DNA from: an uncultured Colwellia sp.
GTDB lineage: Bacteria; Pseudomonadota; Gammaproteobacteria; Enterobacterales; Alteromonadaceae
Length of the DNA: 64,000 nt
NCBI GenBank assembly: GCA_913058145.1
Contig: CAJXQM010000002.1
Location: 62,001 to 126,000 of the forward strand
Reading direction: 5' to 3'
Shown here: piece after piece, positions 45,580 through 59,513 of the stretch
Numbering within the stretch: the stretch's first letter is position 1
Layout of the letters: each line of letters begins with the position of its first letter
Notes under the pieces: generated by a model
Databases searched by the model: none
Told to the model about the DNA's origin: nothing
The model's input: the letters and a program-made list of their open reading frames with translations, nothing else
Made by a program: the position numbers and the translations under genes

Positions 45580-46008
45580 ATGTTAAAAAAAGAGTGTGAA
45601 CTCGATTTATATTCAGACATGACTATTTTATGTGTCGATGATGAAGCCTGTATATTAAGATCACTACAGCGTTTATTTTACCGTCAAACTTACCGAGTTT
45701 TAGTCGCTCAAAGCGCTGAACAAGCATTGTTGATAATGCAAAAGCAGCCTGTAAGTTTGATCATTTCTGATATGCGCATGCCTAAAATGGATGGAGCCCA
45801 ACTTTTACAGCAAGTTTCGCAATTACACCCTAAAATTTATCGTATTATGTTAAGTGGCTATGCTGACTTTGAATCTACAGTAGGCTCATTAAACTTAGAT
45901 AAAACACATAAATTTATTAACAAACCTTGGAATAATAACGAATTAATAGGTGTTGTTAACGAAGGTTTAGCGCAGGTGGTATTAAAGAAAGGTAATGTTC
46001 ATCATTAG
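45580..46008 (+). CDS. Single-domain response regulator receiver
   Basis: ILCVDDEACILRSLQRL...LIISDMRMPKMDG...INKPW. Confidence 0.92.
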   Translation: MLKKECELDLYSDMTILCVDDEACILRSLQRLFYRQTYRVLVAQSAEQALLIMQKQPVSLIISDMRMPKMDGAQLLQQVSQLHPKIYRIMLSGYADFESTVGSLNLDKTHKFINKPWNNNELIGVVNEGLAQVVLKKGNVHH

Positions 46009-46569: not shown

Positions 46570-47558
46570 ATCAGCCAGATGCTTATAAAATTGCTTTTAA
46601 AAGAGAAGTAAAAGCAAGAGAATTAGCGGAAAAATTGCTTGAAGATAAAACCCGAGAACTATACGACAACGTTTTACATCTCGAAGGGGTTATTGATGAA
46701 CTGAACGTCATGCAAAAACAGCTTATTCAGTCAGAAAAAATGGCTTCCTTAGGTCAGCTTACCGCAGGTATTGCTCATGAAATCAATAATCCTATTGGTT
46801 TTTCCTACAGTAATATTTCTTGCTTAAATGATTATTTAACCGACTTTTTTTTATTAGATGATCACATAATGAATTCGAATGATTTGCAATTAAATGAAGC
46901 AGAGCTACTGAAACAATATCGTCAAATTCATAAAAAAATCAATGCTGACTATCTGAAAAAAGATATACCTATACTATTAAAAGATACGTTCGAAGGGTTA
47001 CACCGCGTTAAACATATTGTTGAAAATTTAAAAAAAATTTCTTACAAAAGTAATGATAAATTTACATCTTTTAGCATAAATGAATGTATTAATTATAGCC
47101 TTAAAGCGGTTAAAAATGAGTTAAAGTATTCCATGGATACCACATTAGAATTAAATGACTGCCCTAACATATTTGGAGAAGCATCAGACTTAATTCAAGT
47201 GTTCATTATTTTATTCATAAATGCTTCCCAGGCATGTGAAAAAAAAGGGCATCTGTTTATTAAGTCCTCGCATGAACAAGATAAAGTGATTATATCCATT
47301 AGGGATAATGGAAAAGGCATTGCTGAGGATAATTTACATAAAATTTTCGATCCTTTTTTTACTACAAAAGATATTGGTGCTGGTACAGGGTTAGGCTTAT
47401 CGATATCACACGGAATTATGGAAAAACATTGTGGAAAAATTACAGTTGAAAGTAAAATAAACCAAGGGACTTGCTTTACAATAACCTTACCAATTGAAAA
47501 ACGAATAAAACCAAGGGGCTTGTCTTATGATAACCTTGTCCCCCAAAAAATCGTTTAA
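46566..47558 (+). CDS. Soluble sensor histidine kinase, H-NOX-associated
   Basis: GQLTAGIAHEINNPIGFSYSNI; GTGLGLSISHGIMEKH; start overlaps the end of the H-NOX gene. Confidence 0.93.
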   Translation: MNQPDAYKIAFKREVKARELAEKLLEDKTRELYDNVLHLEGVIDELNVMQKQLIQSEKMASLGQLTAGIAHEINNPIGFSYSNISCLNDYLTDFFLLDDHIMNSNDLQLNEAELLKQYRQIHKKINADYLKKDIPILLKDTFEGLHRVKHIVENLKKISYKSNDKFTSFSINECINYSLKAVKNELKYSMDTTLELNDCPNIFGEASDLIQVFIILFINASQACEKKGHLFIKSSHEQDKVIISIRDNGKGIAEDNLHKIFDPFFTTKDIGAGTGLGLSISHGIMEKHCGKITVESKINQGTCFTITLPIEKRIKPRGLSYDNLVPQKIV

Positions 47559-47649
47559 GATCGTCTAAAGCCCCATCGAAGTGATATGACAACCTAGTAC
47601 TCTATCTCCTAGTGAGTAAAGACTAAATATCACTAACACTTTTATTTGT

Positions 47650-47674
47650 CGCCTAACACTTAAATTTATAGGCG
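47650..47674 (+). terminator. Possible weak terminator hairpin after the histidine kinase gene
   Basis: CGCCTA-N13-TAGGCG followed by TTTATT. Confidence 0.35.
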
Positions 47675-47743
47675 TTTATTCCGTTAGTATCAAGCGGCCT
47701 AACCACAACAAATCAAAGTACGGATACATAAGAAAATAAAATA

Positions 47744-47759
47744 TGGAATACTTTTTGCT
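47744..47759 (+). promoter_or_regulatory. Candidate sigma-54 promoter upstream of the LruC-domain gene
   Basis: TGGAATACTTTTTGCT, GG-N10-GC spacing; weak -24 block. Confidence 0.4.
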
Positions 47760-47802
47760 TAACTATTAATAATAATTGGTAAACATTGAGCAGAGTTTTT
47801 TT

Positions 47803-50682: not shown

Positions 50683-51171
50683 ATGAAAAAACTTTCGTTC
50701 TACTGCATTTTTGTTATTACTCTACTTACTTGTACTGGCTGCGTTTCGTCATCCATAAATGACTCTGTGGCATTGATCGAAAAAGAAGCAAATGCAGAAA
50801 GTTATCGACCAGTGAATAAAAACGTTTTAACGAGTATTCAAGCGTTACGTAACTCACACAAAAGAGTAGAACAAGGCGAGACTCCAACAAATAGTCAAAG
50901 CGACAGTTACAGCTTTACTTATGAGTTGCAAAATAAAGAATTAAAGTACAATGATAAAATAAAAATAGTGAGTCTGGTAGTGAACAAAAACAAAATATTT
51001 ATCATTAATATCGCCCTTGCTAAAGGCACCAATAGACTTGACCAATTAGCACTATCAATGGCTAGGGCAGAATTATTACGACTGTATATTGGTCACTTTA
51101 ATAACAATGTGACCATCAAATTTGCTCCTAAGTTATCAAATAATACTATTAACTTAGTTACTAGTGCTTAA
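50683..51171 (+). CDS. Hypothetical lipoprotein in EPS operon
   Basis: Lipobox LLTCTGCVSS; overlaps next gene. Confidence 0.7.
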   Translation: MKKLSFYCIFVITLLTCTGCVSSSINDSVALIEKEANAESYRPVNKNVLTSIQALRNSHKRVEQGETPTNSQSDSYSFTYELQNKELKYNDKIKIVSLVVNKNKIFIINIALAKGTNRLDQLALSMARAELLRLYIGHFNNNVTIKFAPKLSNNTINLVTSA

Positions 51172-52651
51172 TATGAGAACATCGGTAATGATAAATATCC
51201 ACCTTATATTGTCAGCGATATGGCGTCATAGGTATTTAATTATATTGCCAGCAATGATATTACCCGTTATCGCGCTAATTATATCCTTTCTCGCCCCAAG
51301 AACTTGGGAATCACACACCACGATATTGGTACAAGAAAGTGCCAAAATGAACCCTTTTCTTGAAGATTTATCAGTATCAACTGATTTAAAAGACAGAATG
51401 GCTACTTTAGATACCTTGCTTCATAGCCGACATATGCTAATTAATGTTGCGCAAGATTTAGCACTGATAAATGAAAAGTCAACTAACTTACAAACTGATG
51501 ATTTCGTTAATAAATTATCAGCTTCACTTAAGGTAAACTGGATTGGTAAAGATCTTGTAAAGCTTATTTACCGTACAGATTCCCCTGAAAACATGGTTGA
51601 TGTACTAGTAGCAGTTAGAAAAAGATTTTTAGAAATACTTTTAGCCCCAGAGTTATCCTCAATAGATGCATCTGAATTATTTCTAACGACCCAATTAACA
51701 CTAAAAACAGCAGACTTACAAAAAGCAGAATTTAGGTTGTCTAATTTTAAACAAAAAAATGCTGAGCAATTACCTCAGCTTTATGGTGCAAACAATACTC
51801 GCTTCAGAGAGTTAAGTCAGTTACTCGAACAGAAAAAAATGGAATTGTCTGGTGCTATTGCCGCCAAAAAAACGATCCGTAGTAGGCTTGCTCAAGTTGA
51901 TCCTGTGATGAGTGAAATTGAGCAAAACATAGTAGAGACCAAAAGCGAATTGGCTATTTTGCGTTCTCGTTACACTGACAAACATAGCAAAGTAGAATCA
52001 TCTATTAGAAAATTATCACAACTTGAAGACGAACGTGAAACCCAAAGCAAAACATCATATAAGATAACCGACGTTGACTTAAATCGTTTATGGGAAGTTG
52101 CAAGTAGCATGCAAGATGGTCGAGTTGATAATAATCAAAACCTATTATTAGTGTCGCAATTACAAGAGTTACAACTTGCAGACAGCCATGTAGAGCAAAT
52201 TAAAGAAGAGATTAGCTCTATTGAACAACAGGTGAAAATGGTAAAAGATTCTCTTGCCGGTACCGGTGAAATGGAAAGGCAACTGTCAGAGCTAAAAAGA
52301 GATCTTGAGGTTCAACGAACTTTATATGGTGATTTACTGACTCGTTATGAAAAGGCAAAAATAACAGGTGCACTTGGCCGGTTTGAACAGCCACAAAGAA
52401 TCAAAATAATCGACGAACCTTACAAACCGAGTTCTCCGACTAACTCCCCTCTTTCAATATTTTTATTAGCCGGAATAATTGGCGGACTATTATTAGGCTC
52501 TGGGTTAGCATTATTCGCCGAAATAACAGACACATCAATCCGAGCAAGACATCAGCTCGAATTAATCACTTCAGTTCCGGTAATAACCCGGTTACCAATA
52601 ATTGGCGCGCAGCCTTTTGAAAGTATGAAAACTTTAGGAGAAAACTTATGA
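51164..52651 (+). CDS. Wzz-family chain-length determinant (EpsF/SypO-like)
   Basis: N- and C-terminal TM, coiled coil, PSSPTNSPLSIFLLAGIIGGLLLGSGLALFAE. Confidence 0.88.
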   Translation: MLNMRTSVMINIHLILSAIWRHRYLIILPAMILPVIALIISFLAPRTWESHTTILVQESAKMNPFLEDLSVSTDLKDRMATLDTLLHSRHMLINVAQDLALINEKSTNLQTDDFVNKLSASLKVNWIGKDLVKLIYRTDSPENMVDVLVAVRKRFLEILLAPELSSIDASELFLTTQLTLKTADLQKAEFRLSNFKQKNAEQLPQLYGANNTRFRELSQLLEQKKMELSGAIAAKKTIRSRLAQVDPVMSEIEQNIVETKSELAILRSRYTDKHSKVESSIRKLSQLEDERETQSKTSYKITDVDLNRLWEVASSMQDGRVDNNQNLLLVSQLQELQLADSHVEQIKEEISSIEQQVKMVKDSLAGTGEMERQLSELKRDLEVQRTLYGDLLTRYEKAKITGALGRFEQPQRIKIIDEPYKPSSPTNSPLSIFLLAGIIGGLLLGSGLALFAEITDTSIRARHQLELITSVPVITRLPIIGAQPFESMKTLGENL

Positions 52652-53715
52652 AACCAGTCACCCTTCATCTTCTACAACACTTAAAACCAGGTGGTATAGA
52701 AAGTTTGGCATTAGAGTTTCAACGTGCTGCACAGCCATTATTTGATGTGCACATCATTTCTCTAGAAAAACACAACGTCAAATGTTACTGGAATAATATC
52801 GATGGTTTTGAAGAATTTATTCACGTATTAAATAAAAAGCCAGGTTGGCAAATGAACATTTTCAGCCAATTAACCGCATTCTTTAAAAAAGTTAAACCTA
52901 TCTATGTTCACACCCATCATATTGGGCCGTTAATATATGGCGGTGTCGCTAAAGCAAACTTTGACAATATTGTTTTTAGCGATGTATCCGCATTATTACC
53001 CGTAAATAGCTTGTTGATGCTAGATAGTCATTTTAAAAATCCAAAGGTGGGTGCTGTTTCAGGTGGTTATAAATTTATTCAAAAAGGAACCGCAGGCGAG
53101 CAATGCTATTGGAAATATCAATCCATGGTTAAAACAAGAGAAAGCTCTATTGCCAGTGTATTAGGCGCTCACGGTGCTTTTTATGCCCTAAGGAAGTCTT
53201 GTTATGACGATGTTCCAGCAGAGACCATTAATGACGATTTTTTGATCCCCATGAATGTTATTAAACAAGGTTATCGTGTGATATATGAGCCTAGAGTCGT
53301 TGCCATTGAACTTGAACAAGTTAATTTAGAGCAAGATATGGGTAGACGATTAAGAATAGCGGCAGGGAACTTTCAACAACTTGTTTATTTACTGCCTTTG
53401 TTATCACCTAAGTATGGCTGGAATGCGATAAATTTTGCTTCTGGTAAAGCGTTAAGAGCAATAATGCCTTTTATATTGGTATTTATCTTTATTGGTAATA
53501 TTTATCTTGCTCCCATTCATACTCTTTTTATATCGCTATTGGCCTGCCAGCTTTTTTTATATGGCCTTGTTATGCTTATTAATGTATTTCAACTTTCACC
53601 TAAATTGAGAGCATTAAAATTAATTTGTTATTTAGTCAATGGTTACTGGGTCGCCTTAAAGGGATCGTTAAAGTACATATTTGGTTTACAAGAAAAAATT
53701 TGGACTAAAATCTAG
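52648..53715 (+). CDS. Apparent GT4 (N-terminal) :: GT2 (C-terminal) glycosyltransferase fusion
   Basis: Starts VTLHLLQHLKPGGIESLALEF...VHTHHIGPLIYGGVAKA (GT4 N-domain) then FSDVSALLPVNSLLMLDSHFKNPKVGAVSGG...GAHGAFYALRK...NDDFLIPM plus C-terminal TM (GT2 C-terminal half). Confidence 0.8.
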   Translation: MKPVTLHLLQHLKPGGIESLALEFQRAAQPLFDVHIISLEKHNVKCYWNNIDGFEEFIHVLNKKPGWQMNIFSQLTAFFKKVKPIYVHTHHIGPLIYGGVAKANFDNIVFSDVSALLPVNSLLMLDSHFKNPKVGAVSGGYKFIQKGTAGEQCYWKYQSMVKTRESSIASVLGAHGAFYALRKSCYDDVPAETINDDFLIPMNVIKQGYRVIYEPRVVAIELEQVNLEQDMGRRLRIAAGNFQQLVYLLPLLSPKYGWNAINFASGKALRAIMPFILVFIFIGNIYLAPIHTLFISLLACQLFLYGLVMLINVFQLSPKLRALKLICYLVNGYWVALKGSLKYIFGLQEKIWTKI

Positions 53716-53723
53716 GAGATATC

Positions 53724-54365
53724 ATGAAACACACTAGCTTTGTACACCCAACGATTTCTATTATTAAAAGAAATATTGATTTAACATTTTCCATAACCTG
53801 TTTGTTATTAACTTTACCCTTGTTTGTAGTGATAGCATTAATGATAAAATTATCCTCACGAGGAGACATTTTTTATTGTCAATTAAGAGTAGGTAAAATG
53901 AAAGACGGAAAAGTTCAGCATTTTAATATGATCAAATTTCGCACTATGGTGACTAATGCCGAAGCGAGCTCTGGTGCTGTTTGGGCAACAAGTAACGATA
54001 ATAGGCTAACCCCTATTGGTAAGTTACTTAGAAAAGTTCGCCTTGATGAACTGCCGCAATTTATTAATGTTATTAAAGGTGATATGTCACTTATCGGGCC
54101 TCGACCTGAAAGGCCTGAAATAGTTATAGAGCTAGACAAAGTAATCCCTTTTTATTCTGAGCGTACTTACGATATTACTCCTGGTATTACTGGCTTAGCA
54201 CAAGTGAATCAAGGATATGATACCTGCATTGATGATGTTAAAACAAAAATAGGTTATGACTTTGCATACTCGCTATCACTTACTAAACCACATAGATGGT
54301 TGTTAATGGATTTAAAAATCGTTTTTAAAACAATACTTATCATGGTGTTAGGACGTGGGCAGTAA
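53724..54365 (+). CDS. Sugar transferase (bacterial phosphoglycosyl transferase; SypR-like)
   Basis: FNMIKFRTMVTNAEA...LRKVRLDELPQFINVIKGDMSLIGPRPERPE. Confidence 0.93.
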   Translation: MKHTSFVHPTISIIKRNIDLTFSITCLLLTLPLFVVIALMIKLSSRGDIFYCQLRVGKMKDGKVQHFNMIKFRTMVTNAEASSGAVWATSNDNRLTPIGKLLRKVRLDELPQFINVIKGDMSLIGPRPERPEIVIELDKVIPFYSERTYDITPGITGLAQVNQGYDTCIDDVKTKIGYDFAYSLSLTKPHRWLLMDLKIVFKTILIMVLGRGQ

Positions 54366-54389
54366 CACTTTTAGCTACAAGGATAAGTG

Positions 54390-55286
54390 ATGACAGATAT
54401 TAATGTGACTTGTATTGGCGGAGGGCACGGTTTAGGGCACCTGTTAGAAATCATCAATGATTTTGACAACGTCAATTTAACTGGCATTGTTAGTACTACT
54501 GATAATGGGGGGTCTACTGGCCGTTTGAGGGAAAGCTGCGATACAATTTCTTGGGGCGACATTCGCTATTGTTTATCAAAATTAACTAAAGCTGTATCAA
54601 ATAAAGAGTCTTCAACTAAAGCACTCTTATTTGAATATCGCTTCGATAAATCAGGCGTTCTCTCAGGGCATAACCTAGGAAATTTAATGTTTTGCGCCGT
54701 TGATTCTCTTTGCCTAAGACCTACTAAAACGGTGCAGGTGATGCGTGAATATTTGGGAGTTAAAGCAAATATTTTACCTATGTCTGACGCAGTAACTCAC
54801 CTGGTGAGTCACTGCGCTGAGCATTGTTATGTTGGCGAAGTTGAAGTTGATGAACACGCTAGCCAAGGCATTAACAATCTAGTATTAACACCTATGGTTC
54901 AACCCAGCGAAGAAGTTTTATACTCCTTACAAAATGCAAATATTTTATTTCTTGGTCCAGGGAGTTTTTATACCAGTACCCTACCGAGCCTATTAATGAA
55001 TACTGTTATTGATGCTATTAATCACAATACTAAACTTAAAGTTTATTTTATTACTAATGTGGAAGATGAGTTCAACGGCCAACGCGACGAAATACATGAC
55101 CAACTTGAATTCATTAGGAAGCTAGGACTAACAAAAACGGTTCACTCCTTGATCCCCCGCCATCGCGTTTCCTCTTCTATCGAATTATGTAAACCTTATA
55201 CTATCGCCGAGCTTCCTGGGGATATTGGCGGCAGGCATCAACAGCCATTTTATCGAGAACAGCTGCTTGAACTTATACAACGATAG
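54390..55286 (+). CDS. YvcK/CofD-family protein
   Basis: CIGGGHGLGHLL, VSTTDNGGSTGRLRE, LGPGSFYTSTLPSLL. Confidence 0.9.
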   Translation: MTDINVTCIGGGHGLGHLLEIINDFDNVNLTGIVSTTDNGGSTGRLRESCDTISWGDIRYCLSKLTKAVSNKESSTKALLFEYRFDKSGVLSGHNLGNLMFCAVDSLCLRPTKTVQVMREYLGVKANILPMSDAVTHLVSHCAEHCYVGEVEVDEHASQGINNLVLTPMVQPSEEVLYSLQNANILFLGPGSFYTSTLPSLLMNTVIDAINHNTKLKVYFITNVEDEFNGQRDEIHDQLEFIRKLGLTKTVHSLIPRHRVSSSIELCKPYTIAELPGDIGGRHQQPFYREQLLELIQR

Positions 55287-55516: not shown

Positions 55517-55867
55517 ATGTTAAATGAAACTTATAATCTAATTAACGATTTTATAATTAAGATCAACGGAAACTTTGATGCAGATACGGTAAATATCATG
55601 AAAGATAATATAGAAACGTATAGCAAACTAAGTACAAATATTGTCTTTGATCTTGAACATGTACCTTTTATCGATTCATCAGGCATTGGCGCGATCATAT
55701 TTTTATATAAAAGAATGGTAGCTAAAGGGTATATAGTCTGCGTTACTGGATTAACAAAACAACCGCTAGAATTGTTTCAAATGCTGTTTCTAGATAAAAC
55801 GATAAATTGTTATCAAAATATCGACTGTTATCTAGATACAACACCTAATTTGCAAATTGCAAGCTAA
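55517..55867 (+). CDS. STAS domain protein (SypA-like anti-sigma-factor antagonist family)
   Basis: NIVFDLEHVPFIDSSGIGAIIFLYKRM. Confidence 0.88.
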   Translation: MLNETYNLINDFIIKINGNFDADTVNIMKDNIETYSKLSTNIVFDLEHVPFIDSSGIGAIIFLYKRMVAKGYIVCVTGLTKQPLELFQMLFLDKTINCYQNIDCYLDTTPNLQIAS

Positions 55868-56700
55868 TGGTTTCTAAAACTATTTTGGTGTTACTATCTG
55901 CTAGCATGGGATTGTCAGCTTGTAGTACACCAAAAAAATCAAGTTACAACACTCATTTATTTCCGCTTGTTGGTAATTCAATAAGTTTAGATAAAACGCA
56001 AATAAAAATGTATATTGCTAGCGCAGAGTCTCAACTGTTATTACTGCAACAACAAGAATCTAAACGATGCATATCAGGCCAGTTAGGTATTGCACAATCG
56101 TATTTAGCGCGAGCAACCGCTGAGCATAATGCCGATATGGAAAAAGATGCTTTTATAACATTGATCGAACTTGATCGACAATTTCGTAAAATTCACTGTA
56201 TAAATAAATATATAAAGGGTCATTTAGGTTGTAGTTATACCAACAAAAAAATAGTACTAAAACGTTGGTACAATGAGGGAGATCTTACTCAATGTGCAAA
56301 TTCATCGATAGCAAGAGAGAAAACTAAAATTGAAAAGAAACACATATTAATTACTGAAACATTGCATGATTTTAATCAAGACGAAATAAAACCCATATAT
56401 TACCCACCACTCAATAAACTGATTGAATTAATTAAAAGTTATCCAAGCTCAAAATTACTCATCCGCGGCCATACCGATACTACAGGAAGTACGTCATACA
56501 ACAGTGAGCTAAGTAAGAGACGGGCACAAAATGTTGCCAAATATTTCACAGAAAAAGGCATTGATGCTTCACAAATTGTTATAGAAAACAAAGGAGAGGA
56601 AAGTATCAGGGAAATTGAGAAAAATAACGCTTCAAAAGTATTTAATCGCTATACATCTATCACCTTATCTTTAGATACCAGTACTAAAAGTAACATATAG
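55867..56700 (+). CDS. OmpA-family lipoprotein (SypB-like)
   Basis: Lipobox GLSACST; LLIRGHTDTTGSTSYNSELSKRRAQNVAKYF. Confidence 0.9.
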   Translation: MVSKTILVLLSASMGLSACSTPKKSSYNTHLFPLVGNSISLDKTQIKMYIASAESQLLLLQQQESKRCISGQLGIAQSYLARATAEHNADMEKDAFITLIELDRQFRKIHCINKYIKGHLGCSYTNKKIVLKRWYNEGDLTQCANSSIAREKTKIEKKHILITETLHDFNQDEIKPIYYPPLNKLIELIKSYPSSKLLIRGHTDTTGSTSYNSELSKRRAQNVAKYFTEKGIDASQIVIENKGEESIREIEKNNASKVFNRYTSITLSLDTSTKSNI

Positions 56701-56710
56701 GAAATTAATT

Positions 56711-58816
56711 ATGTTTAAACTATTAATCGCCTTACTAACCTATGTATTTGTTATTATTTCTGCTATATCAGCTGAAATCATCATTCGGCCTGGTGATGTA
56801 CTGCAAATTGAAATCCCCGGTGAAGTTGAATTTAAAAACCCATTTCAAGTCAAACGTGATGGCACGCTCAATTTACCTGAAGTAGGTAAAGTGTCAATTA
56901 TCGATAAAACACTAACGCAAGCAAACGAAGATCTAGCTAAATTATTAGCCGCAGAATATCGCGCCATTAACAACTTTAAAGTCTACCTAGTTGAAAGGCG
57001 AGTACCTATTAAAGTGTTAGGTTTTGTTGAAACTCCTGGATTGATCGATTTACCGGAGAATGGAAACATACAAATGGCGCTGCAAAAATCTGGAGGTGCA
57101 GTAGCTGGAGCTCAACTTGACAGGATACAGTTACATCGTCAAGGGAAGGTAACAATCTTTGATTATAAAAAATATTTAGACACTGGTGATTTTTCAATAT
57201 TACCTAAAGTTGAGCCTTTAGATATAATTTTCGTCCCCGCATCGCCTTTAATTGGTAATGTTCAAATGGATTTTGATGCGGCAACCTTATCAAGTGGTGG
57301 TGATGGTTCTGATGTCAAAACATCTATTAAAGTTTTTGGTGAAGTCATAAAACCCGGCGTTTTTTCTTTTAAAAAAGGTAATACTCTAGTCGATATGCTA
57401 ATGAGAGCTGGTGGTGTAACTCGGTATGCTGGCGTTGAACATATACGCGTGATTAACCAAGGAGCACCACAGCTTTTTGATCTAAAATCATATTTAGATA
57501 CCGGTGATGCTTCGCATATGCCAAAAATCACACCGGGTTCTACCTTATTTATTCCGATCCAGGAAAAAGAAATTAAAAATGGCGCACGAACGGTTTATGT
57601 TATGGGTGAAGTTTTTAAGCCTGGGGCATATGAAGCGCCAGCGAACACAAAGTTTTTTGATATTTTGGCAAATGCTGGTGGCCCTAGTCGCTTTGCTGAA
57701 TCGAGAAAGATTAGAATTATTCGGGCATCAGGCAAAGTAGATGATTTCGACTTACAAGCCTATACTGAAGGATTAACACAAGCGGCCGTCCCCACGGTAT
57801 CCCCTGGAGATGCCATATTTGTTCCTGAAAAAACCGATTTGAATGAAAAGTCATGGCTTAAAATCACGCCTGACAGAGCCATTAAACTGATAGGTGCGGT
57901 GAAAAAACCTGGCCGATATGAATGGGGCGATGAAATGAGCTTCCTTGATATTTTGGCCCATGCTGGTGGACCAACGCAATATGCTGATATGTCTCAAGTA
58001 ATAGTTCTAAAAAAAGGCCAGAAAAAACAGATGGAACCATTCGATTTAGAGAGCTTCATTTCTAAAGGAGGCGACTTCTCTTTGTTGCCTAACATATCAG
58101 CAGGGGACACTATCATTATCAATGAAAGACAACGTGATGTTATCGATAATAAGGCTTCATGGTTACGTCAACCTCAAGAATTATCAATTTATATTTTCGG
58201 TCAAGTAGGATTGCCTGGGCGGTATGCTTTTAATAATAAATTACACATTTTAGATATACTTTCAGCTGCTAATGGACCGACTCAAGCCGCAGATATTCAT
58301 AATATAAAAATAACTCACCGCAATGGTTTTCAAAGTAAAGTAAGTACCCTTGATTTAGGTTTGTACTTTGAAACTGGCGATGAGACTTTATTACCAATAG
58401 TTAAATCGGGTGACACTATTTACGTTCCAGAAAGAGACAGGCAATGGATCGACAATAAGAAAGAACAAACGGTTCGAATAATCGGGGCGGTAGTAAAACC
58501 AGGACGCTACAAGTTTAGCTCAAACATGACAATTTTAGATATCTTAGCTGAATCAGGCGGTCCAACCCAAGCTGCTTATTTGGAAAAAATTATGGTAATA
58601 AATATTTCTAAAAGCAAAGCAGAGGAAAATGTTAGCCGCGTTTTTGATTTAGAATCGTTTATCGAACAGCCAGACTTCACCAAATTACCACTGGTACGTC
58701 TTGGCGACACCATTTTTGTACCAGATGTATCTCAAAATAATTGGAATGTTTTTATGGCTAACGTCAAAGATATGCTTAGCATAGTATCGCTTGTTGCCAT
58801 TTCTGGAGGCTTATAA
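56711..58816 (+). CDS. Polysaccharide export protein with multiple SLBB domains (SypC/Wza-like)
   Basis: IRPGDVLQIEIPGE then repeated GxVxxPGxYxx...DILAxAGGPTQ blocks. Confidence 0.92.
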   Translation: MFKLLIALLTYVFVIISAISAEIIIRPGDVLQIEIPGEVEFKNPFQVKRDGTLNLPEVGKVSIIDKTLTQANEDLAKLLAAEYRAINNFKVYLVERRVPIKVLGFVETPGLIDLPENGNIQMALQKSGGAVAGAQLDRIQLHRQGKVTIFDYKKYLDTGDFSILPKVEPLDIIFVPASPLIGNVQMDFDAATLSSGGDGSDVKTSIKVFGEVIKPGVFSFKKGNTLVDMLMRAGGVTRYAGVEHIRVINQGAPQLFDLKSYLDTGDASHMPKITPGSTLFIPIQEKEIKNGARTVYVMGEVFKPGAYEAPANTKFFDILANAGGPSRFAESRKIRIIRASGKVDDFDLQAYTEGLTQAAVPTVSPGDAIFVPEKTDLNEKSWLKITPDRAIKLIGAVKKPGRYEWGDEMSFLDILAHAGGPTQYADMSQVIVLKKGQKKQMEPFDLESFISKGGDFSLLPNISAGDTIIINERQRDVIDNKASWLRQPQELSIYIFGQVGLPGRYAFNNKLHILDILSAANGPTQAADIHNIKITHRNGFQSKVSTLDLGLYFETGDETLLPIVKSGDTIYVPERDRQWIDNKKEQTVRIIGAVVKPGRYKFSSNMTILDILAESGGPTQAAYLEKIMVINISKSKAEENVSRVFDLESFIEQPDFTKLPLVRLGDTIFVPDVSQNNWNVFMANVKDMLSIVSLVAISGGL

Positions 58817-58818
58817 TA

Positions 58819-59513
58819 TGCAAGAATTACCGATTCATTATTCAGAAGTTGAAGCGATATACAATCAAACTCTTGGTTCGGGTTATAGCACCTTAGCGAT
58901 TACTTCGGCTAAAGCCGGAGAAGGAAAAACGACGGTTGCACAGGCCATTGCTAAACGAGCTCAAGTGGTTGGTAAAATAGTGTTGTTGGTTGAAATGAAT
59001 ACCTTTAACCCTGTTTTATCCAAAGCCTTACGCACTTCAATAACAAAGCCAGTAACGTCAAATGAAATTGTTGCTATTGAAGATAAAGGCTATAGCTTAC
59101 TCCCTGCCCCCGAAAATATTCGTGATATTTTACATTACCGAGAAAAGCATTTATTACTTGAATCAATCAAGCAATGGCTCGTTGAATTTGATTGTATTAT
59201 CTTTGATACCTCAGCATTAACGTCACAAAACCAAAGCAACATACCTGCAGAAATCATCTGTCAAGTATGTGAAGGTGCATTACTGGTAATTGAAGCAGGT
59301 ACAACCCCAGCTAACTTGATAAAAGAAAGTGTTGAAAAATTGAAACTCAAAAATGTTAACTTAATAGGATCGATAATAAATGATATAAATAACCCTTCAT
59401 TATTAACTGAATTACAAAGAGAAACCTATCGCCTTAACCGACTGTTCCCTAAAGTGATGGCGAAGCTTAGAAAGAAATTTGCCAGTTTAGTTTTACTCAA
59501 TATTTCTGTTTAG
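58819..59513 (+). CDS. BY-kinase-like / CpsD-CapB P-loop ATPase (SypD-like)
   Basis: AITSAKAGEGKTTVAQAIAKRA; ATG 58819 (MQELPIHYSEVEAIYN) preferred over the ORF-track start. Confidence 0.85.

Follow-up and report, generated by a model that had tools for sequence, protein, structure and literature searches.

A fused GT4::GT2 glycosyltransferase gene in a syp-like locus of an uncultured Colwellia, probably left by a 1.2-kb deletion

Introduction

The syp-like polysaccharide locus found in the window (the whole stretch of 64,000 nucleotides from an uncultured Colwellia sp. that was analysed here) raises the question of what a single open reading frame, beginning as one type of glycosyltransferase and ending as another, represents at the place where two glycosyltransferase genes are expected. 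The published gene order of this part of the syp locus is sypO-P-Q-R (PMC6420764). In an rpoQ mutant of Aliivibrio salmonicida, disruption of either sypP or sypQ abolishes biofilm formation (PMC6420764), and in Vibrio fischeri cohesive pellicles and the syp biofilm are abolished by deletion of sypQ (PMC12369376); therefore, each gene is needed in the species in which it was disrupted. The single frame in the window may be the remnant of two lost enzymes, a product of the way in which the DNA was amplified or assembled, a working hybrid protein, or a member of an old single-gene family.

Materials and methods

The gene-by-gene comparison comprised the loci of Colwellia L022-L034, without the near-duplicate L027, and of Thalassotalea L035-L037. 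For breakpoint mapping, the window was aligned gap-free from both ends to 12 Colwellia relatives, and adjacent GT4/GT2 gene pairs in the wider genome searches were tallied by eye from match tables. The fused single-ORF form was searched for in 39 genomes of the genus and 299 genomes of the family, the two sets overlapping.

Results

According to Pfam and NCBIfam profiles and synteny, the locus follows a syp-like order (chain-length protein, glycosyltransferase, glycosyltransferase, sugar transferase), accompanied by STAS, OmpA, export, and kinase genes (Table 1). The order assumed by an earlier sequence-only reading of this DNA, with two glycosyltransferases between the chain-length protein and the sugar transferase, agrees with the published sypO-P-Q-R order and with synteny in relatives. 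In the window, the SypO-like gene is followed by the fusion and then by the SypR-like, CofD-like, SypA-like, SypB-like, SypC-like, and SypD-like genes; all of them except the fusion are full length when compared with relatives, and the SypO-like gene overlaps the start of the fusion by 4 nt, as it overlaps the corresponding gene in relatives. The CofD/YvcK-like gene is conserved between the SypR-like and SypA-like genes across Colwellia and Thalassotalea.

Table 1. Features of the syp-like locus, with positions numbered from the first letter of the window
Feature	Position	Strand	Basis
Wzz/GNVR chain-length protein, SypO-like	51164..52651	+	Pfam Wzz and GNVR; synteny
Fused ORF, 355 aa, GT4 N-terminal half :: GT2 C-terminal part	52648..53715	+	Open frame; Pfam halves; two separate genes in all relatives
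SypP-like GT4-derived part, residues 1-97, start of GT-B N-domain	52648..52940	+	75-86% identical to GT4 (364 aa) of Colwellia relatives across 100 residues
Breakpoint interval CGGTGTCGCT, fitting both parental sites, probable short direct repeat remnant	52941..52950	+	Diagnostic bases on either side; null P
SypQ-like GT2-derived part, residues ~102-355	52951..53712	+	80-89% identity to later part of Colwellia GT2
Bacterial sugar transferase, SypR-like	53724..54365	+	Pfam Bac_transf 5.9e-58; 77-91% identity to Colwellia relatives
CofD/YvcK-like protein	54387..55286	+	Pfam CofD; NCBIfam CofD_related above cut-off; synteny
STAS domain protein, SypA-like	55517..55867	+	Pfam STAS; synteny
OmpA-family protein, SypB-like	55867..56700	+	Pfam OmpA; synteny
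Poly_export/SLBB outer-membrane export protein, SypC-like	56711..58816	+	Pfam Poly_export and SLBB; synteny
Tyrosine-autokinase-like ATPase, SypD-like	58791..59513	+	NCBIfam eps_fam below cut-off; 80-84% identity at full coverage in three relatives

The two parts of the fused protein belong to different glycosyltransferase families. Residues 14-104 match Pfam Glyco_transf_4 (positions 1-93 of a profile of 170) below the curated cut-off, which is expected because only half of the domain is present, and residues 115-300 match Glyco_trans_2_3 above the cut-off. Among Colwellia relatives, residues 1-100 align with the start of the GT4 and residues 99-355 with the downstream portion of a GT2 (about 395 aa) encoded by its own gene, at the identities listed in Table 1. 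The translation, the Pfam matches, and these identities uphold the GT4::GT2 fusion recognized in the sequence-only reading, but the switch, which had been placed near residue 110 (nt 52960-52985), lies slightly upstream, at 52941-52950 (codons ~98-101).

The fusion lacks the donor-binding region of each family. The N-terminal acceptor-side Rossmann domain of GT4 is represented by its first ~97 residues, and the entire C-terminal donor-binding domain, which is the part that matches solved GT4 structures, for example 3OKA (residues 163-329), is absent, with no match to Pfam Glycos_transf_1; the EX7E motif of the relatives' GT4 (EGLPLSPLE) falls within the deleted segment. On the GT2 side, the missing parts are the N-terminal hydrophobic segment and residues 58-138, with which the match to the solved structure 6YV7 begins, and with them the N-terminal nucleotide-binding strands and the PAFNE/PAYNE and CDG motifs conserved in 14 of 14 aligned relatives. 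Both losses had been proposed from the sequence, and Pfam searches and alignment with relatives bear them out. The GT2-derived part retains FSDVS, NDD, and RRLRI, which we take, from what is known of GT2 enzymes, to act as the DxD-like, TED-like, and QxxRW-like motifs, as well as the hydrophobic C-terminal membrane segment; these are variants of the consensus GT2 motifs, and the intact relatives carry the same variants.

In all 15 close relatives, this place is occupied by two complete genes, whose products are a GT4 (363-364 aa) and a GT2 (about 395 aa). The two genes share a few bases at their overlap but are read in different frames, are flanked by the Wzz-type protein and the sugar transferase, and contain approximately 1.2 kb that the window lacks. 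Adjacent full-length ORFs, separate or overlapping, occur in at least 41 related genomes (13 of the genus, about 24 others of the family, and 4 from other families of the order). The fused form was detected in a single genome, that of the window, among the 39 genus and 299 family genomes; full-length homologues sharing its architecture in many species, which the sequence-only reading had named as the finding that would speak against a fusion by deletion, were absent from both sets. A literature search for glycosyltransferase fusions made by deletion returned nothing relevant.

The junction could be located to within 10 bp. The base at 52940 is that of the GT4 gene in 12 of 12 Colwellia relatives and of the GT2 gene in none, and the base at 52951 is that of the GT2 gene in 12 of 12 and of the GT4 gene in none; therefore, the crossover lies within 52941-52950. 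These 10 ambiguous bases, CGGTGTCGCT, correspond in relatives to approximately GGYRTNGC in the GT4 gene and approximately GGTGTNGC in the GT2 gene. An ambiguous interval of at least 10 bp arose in 0.4% of 20,000 random joins of the relatives' genes (P ~0.004), and a deletion between short direct repeats is thus the natural reading of the breakpoint, as far as a mechanism may be read from the alignment. The missing DNA amounts to 1205 bp compared with most relatives and 1211 bp compared with L023, which is among the closest; both lengths are 2 mod 3, which is also the offset between the frames of the overlapping GT4 and GT2 genes, and for this reason the fused frame stayed open, an outcome expected for one third of random joins. 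The proposal of an in-frame deletion between adjacent glycosyltransferase genes in a sypO-P-Q-R-like order is thereby supported by the comparison with relatives. The DNA lying between the breakpoints was not found in the rest of the same assembly, stray contigs included.

The retained parts of the fusion are free of frameshifts and stop codons. Of 162 positions that do not vary among the other 12 Colwellia sequences, the GT2 part differs at 1, and the pN (non-synonymous difference) of this part is within the range of intact relatives' genes; of 62 invariant positions, the GT4 part differs at 4, which all fall in the first strand (residues 5-9). Since these parts still appear constrained, the event is probably young, and the deletion probably occurred recently on this branch. 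The constraint fits a young event and also a product still in use, because the deletion may be younger than most of the branch. General gene decay was looked for and not seen: among 51 genes with reciprocal matches (contigs C2 and C8), the only odd cases were the fusion and short shadow ORFs or partial relatives. Of the 39 genomes of the genus, which range from about 3.0 to 5.7 Mb, the source genome (3.0 Mb, 97% completeness) is one of the smallest.

Elsewhere in the same genome there is no other close copy of the fused gene. A distant GT2, 29% identical to the SypQ-like GT2, is encoded on contig C8 (1-20000) in a second polysaccharide locus, together with a Wzz-type protein, a full-length sugar transferase, two GT4s, a flippase, and a sulfotransferase.

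Two further differences from relatives were observed in the window. At 45580-46008, a response regulator of 142 aa consists of the receiver domain only and lacks the last ~290 residues of its close orthologs in four relatives (~420-435 aa); an H-NOX gene starts 9 bp further on. This shortening is separate from the fusion and lies 6.6 kb upstream of it. At 47558-47776, the window is without two genes of the relative G022 (~3.3 kb), one for a 412-aa protein and the other for a sensor kinase of 601 aa; the relatives G010 and G005 also carry such a gene pair just upstream of the ortholog of the gene at 47776.

Discussion

We consider it probable, at roughly three chances in four, that a deletion of approximately 1.2 kb left the fused gene as its scar, that neither enzyme works, and that the locus records an ordinary loss of a syp-like polysaccharide pathway. 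The deletion would have occurred between short, near-identical sequences (approximately GGTGTYGC), one in the sypP-like GT4 gene and the other in the overlapping sypQ-like GT2 gene, likely by slipped-strand or other short-repeat recombination. Its product would begin with the first half of the acceptor-side domain of GT4 and continue with the GT2 from just before the DxD-like motif. The donor nucleotide site is formed by the C-domain in GT4 enzymes and by the N-terminal strands in GT2 enzymes. As both donor-binding regions are missing from the fusion, loss of both transferase activities is most likely, and the protein is more likely inactive than altered in function, judging from the domains that it retains. 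The lipid-linked sugar supplied by the downstream SypR-like enzyme would then be left unextended by these two enzymes, and the syp-like polysaccharide would not be made, with the remaining locus still intact. Owing to the second polysaccharide locus on contig C8, such a loss need not abolish all exopolysaccharide production.

It is unlikely, although worth weighing, that the join was created when the DNA was amplified, assembled, or binned, and that the organism itself carries two intact genes. The assembly is a draft of 68 contigs, and whole-genome amplification is known to produce chimeras at short matching sequences; however, assembly k-mers are far longer than the match of at most 10 bp found here, the missing segment does not appear even as a stray contig, and about 50 other shared genes on two contigs exhibit no comparable break, short or partial ORFs aside.

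Very improbable, in our view, is a functional chimera, that is, a working protein with an altered or regulatory function in which the GT4 half replaces the nucleotide-binding half of GT2 or serves as a binding platform in a polysaccharide assembly complex. The conserved residues of the retained GT2 part and the intact surrounding operon are compatible with such a role, and in a low-confidence AlphaFold2 model a helix (residues 93-103) crosses the junction into a strand (residues 109-112), so that the junction may coincide with a helix-strand boundary that matches in both parts. The model is poor, however (mean pLDDT 51.6), as is that of an intact relative's GT2 used as a control (45.8), and the two models speak neither for nor against folding of the fusion; both donor-binding regions are absent, and the architecture was found in no second genome among the 39 genus and 299 family genomes. 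The more specific version, in which the GT4 half-domain would stand in for the nucleotide-binding half of GT2 at a helix-strand boundary that matches structurally, and would give the protein a new specificity for the donor or make it a non-catalytic scaffold in polysaccharide assembly, is a long shot; if true, the hybrid would be a rare, accidental natural cross of the two main glycosyltransferase folds, GT-B and GT-A. An old, conserved single-gene architecture instead of a deletion product can be rejected with near certainty, as we found no point in its support and the searches of the genus, family, and order gave two-gene arrangements only, without any fused homolog in the genus or family.

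If the fused gene is indeed a deletion scar, a marine bacterium can be deprived of two consecutive enzymes of a polysaccharide pathway in a single step with the reading frame unbroken, and here the event can be placed within 10 bp. Automated annotation would register the fusion as one plausible glycosyltransferase, and neither a functional enzyme nor an unusual pathway should be inferred from the fused ORF.

Among the closest comparisons is that with the intact GT4 and GT2 pair of Colwellia and Thalassotalea (L022-L037), with which the fusion shares its neighbors and an identity of 55-86% in the GT4 half and 68-89% in the GT2 half; in contrast to the window, which is shorter by 1205-1211 bp, both genes of these relatives are complete and overlap out of frame. 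Bacterial gene fusions and pseudogenes formed by deletion between short direct repeats resemble the fusion in the repeat at the breakpoint and in the loss of one repeat copy with the intervening DNA, whereas in the window the frame remained open across two different genes. Compared with SypP (a glycosyltransferase) and SypQ (a transmembrane glycosyltransferase) of Vibrio and Aliivibrio, to which orthology was assigned by gene order and family, the site is the same, flanked by a SypO-like Wzz protein on one side and a SypR-like sugar transferase on the other, genes resembling sypA-D are close by, and each half of the fusion derives from the type of glycosyltransferase that would be expected; however, the two proteins are replaced in the window by one fusion of 355 aa, without the GT4 C-domain and the N-terminal part of GT2.
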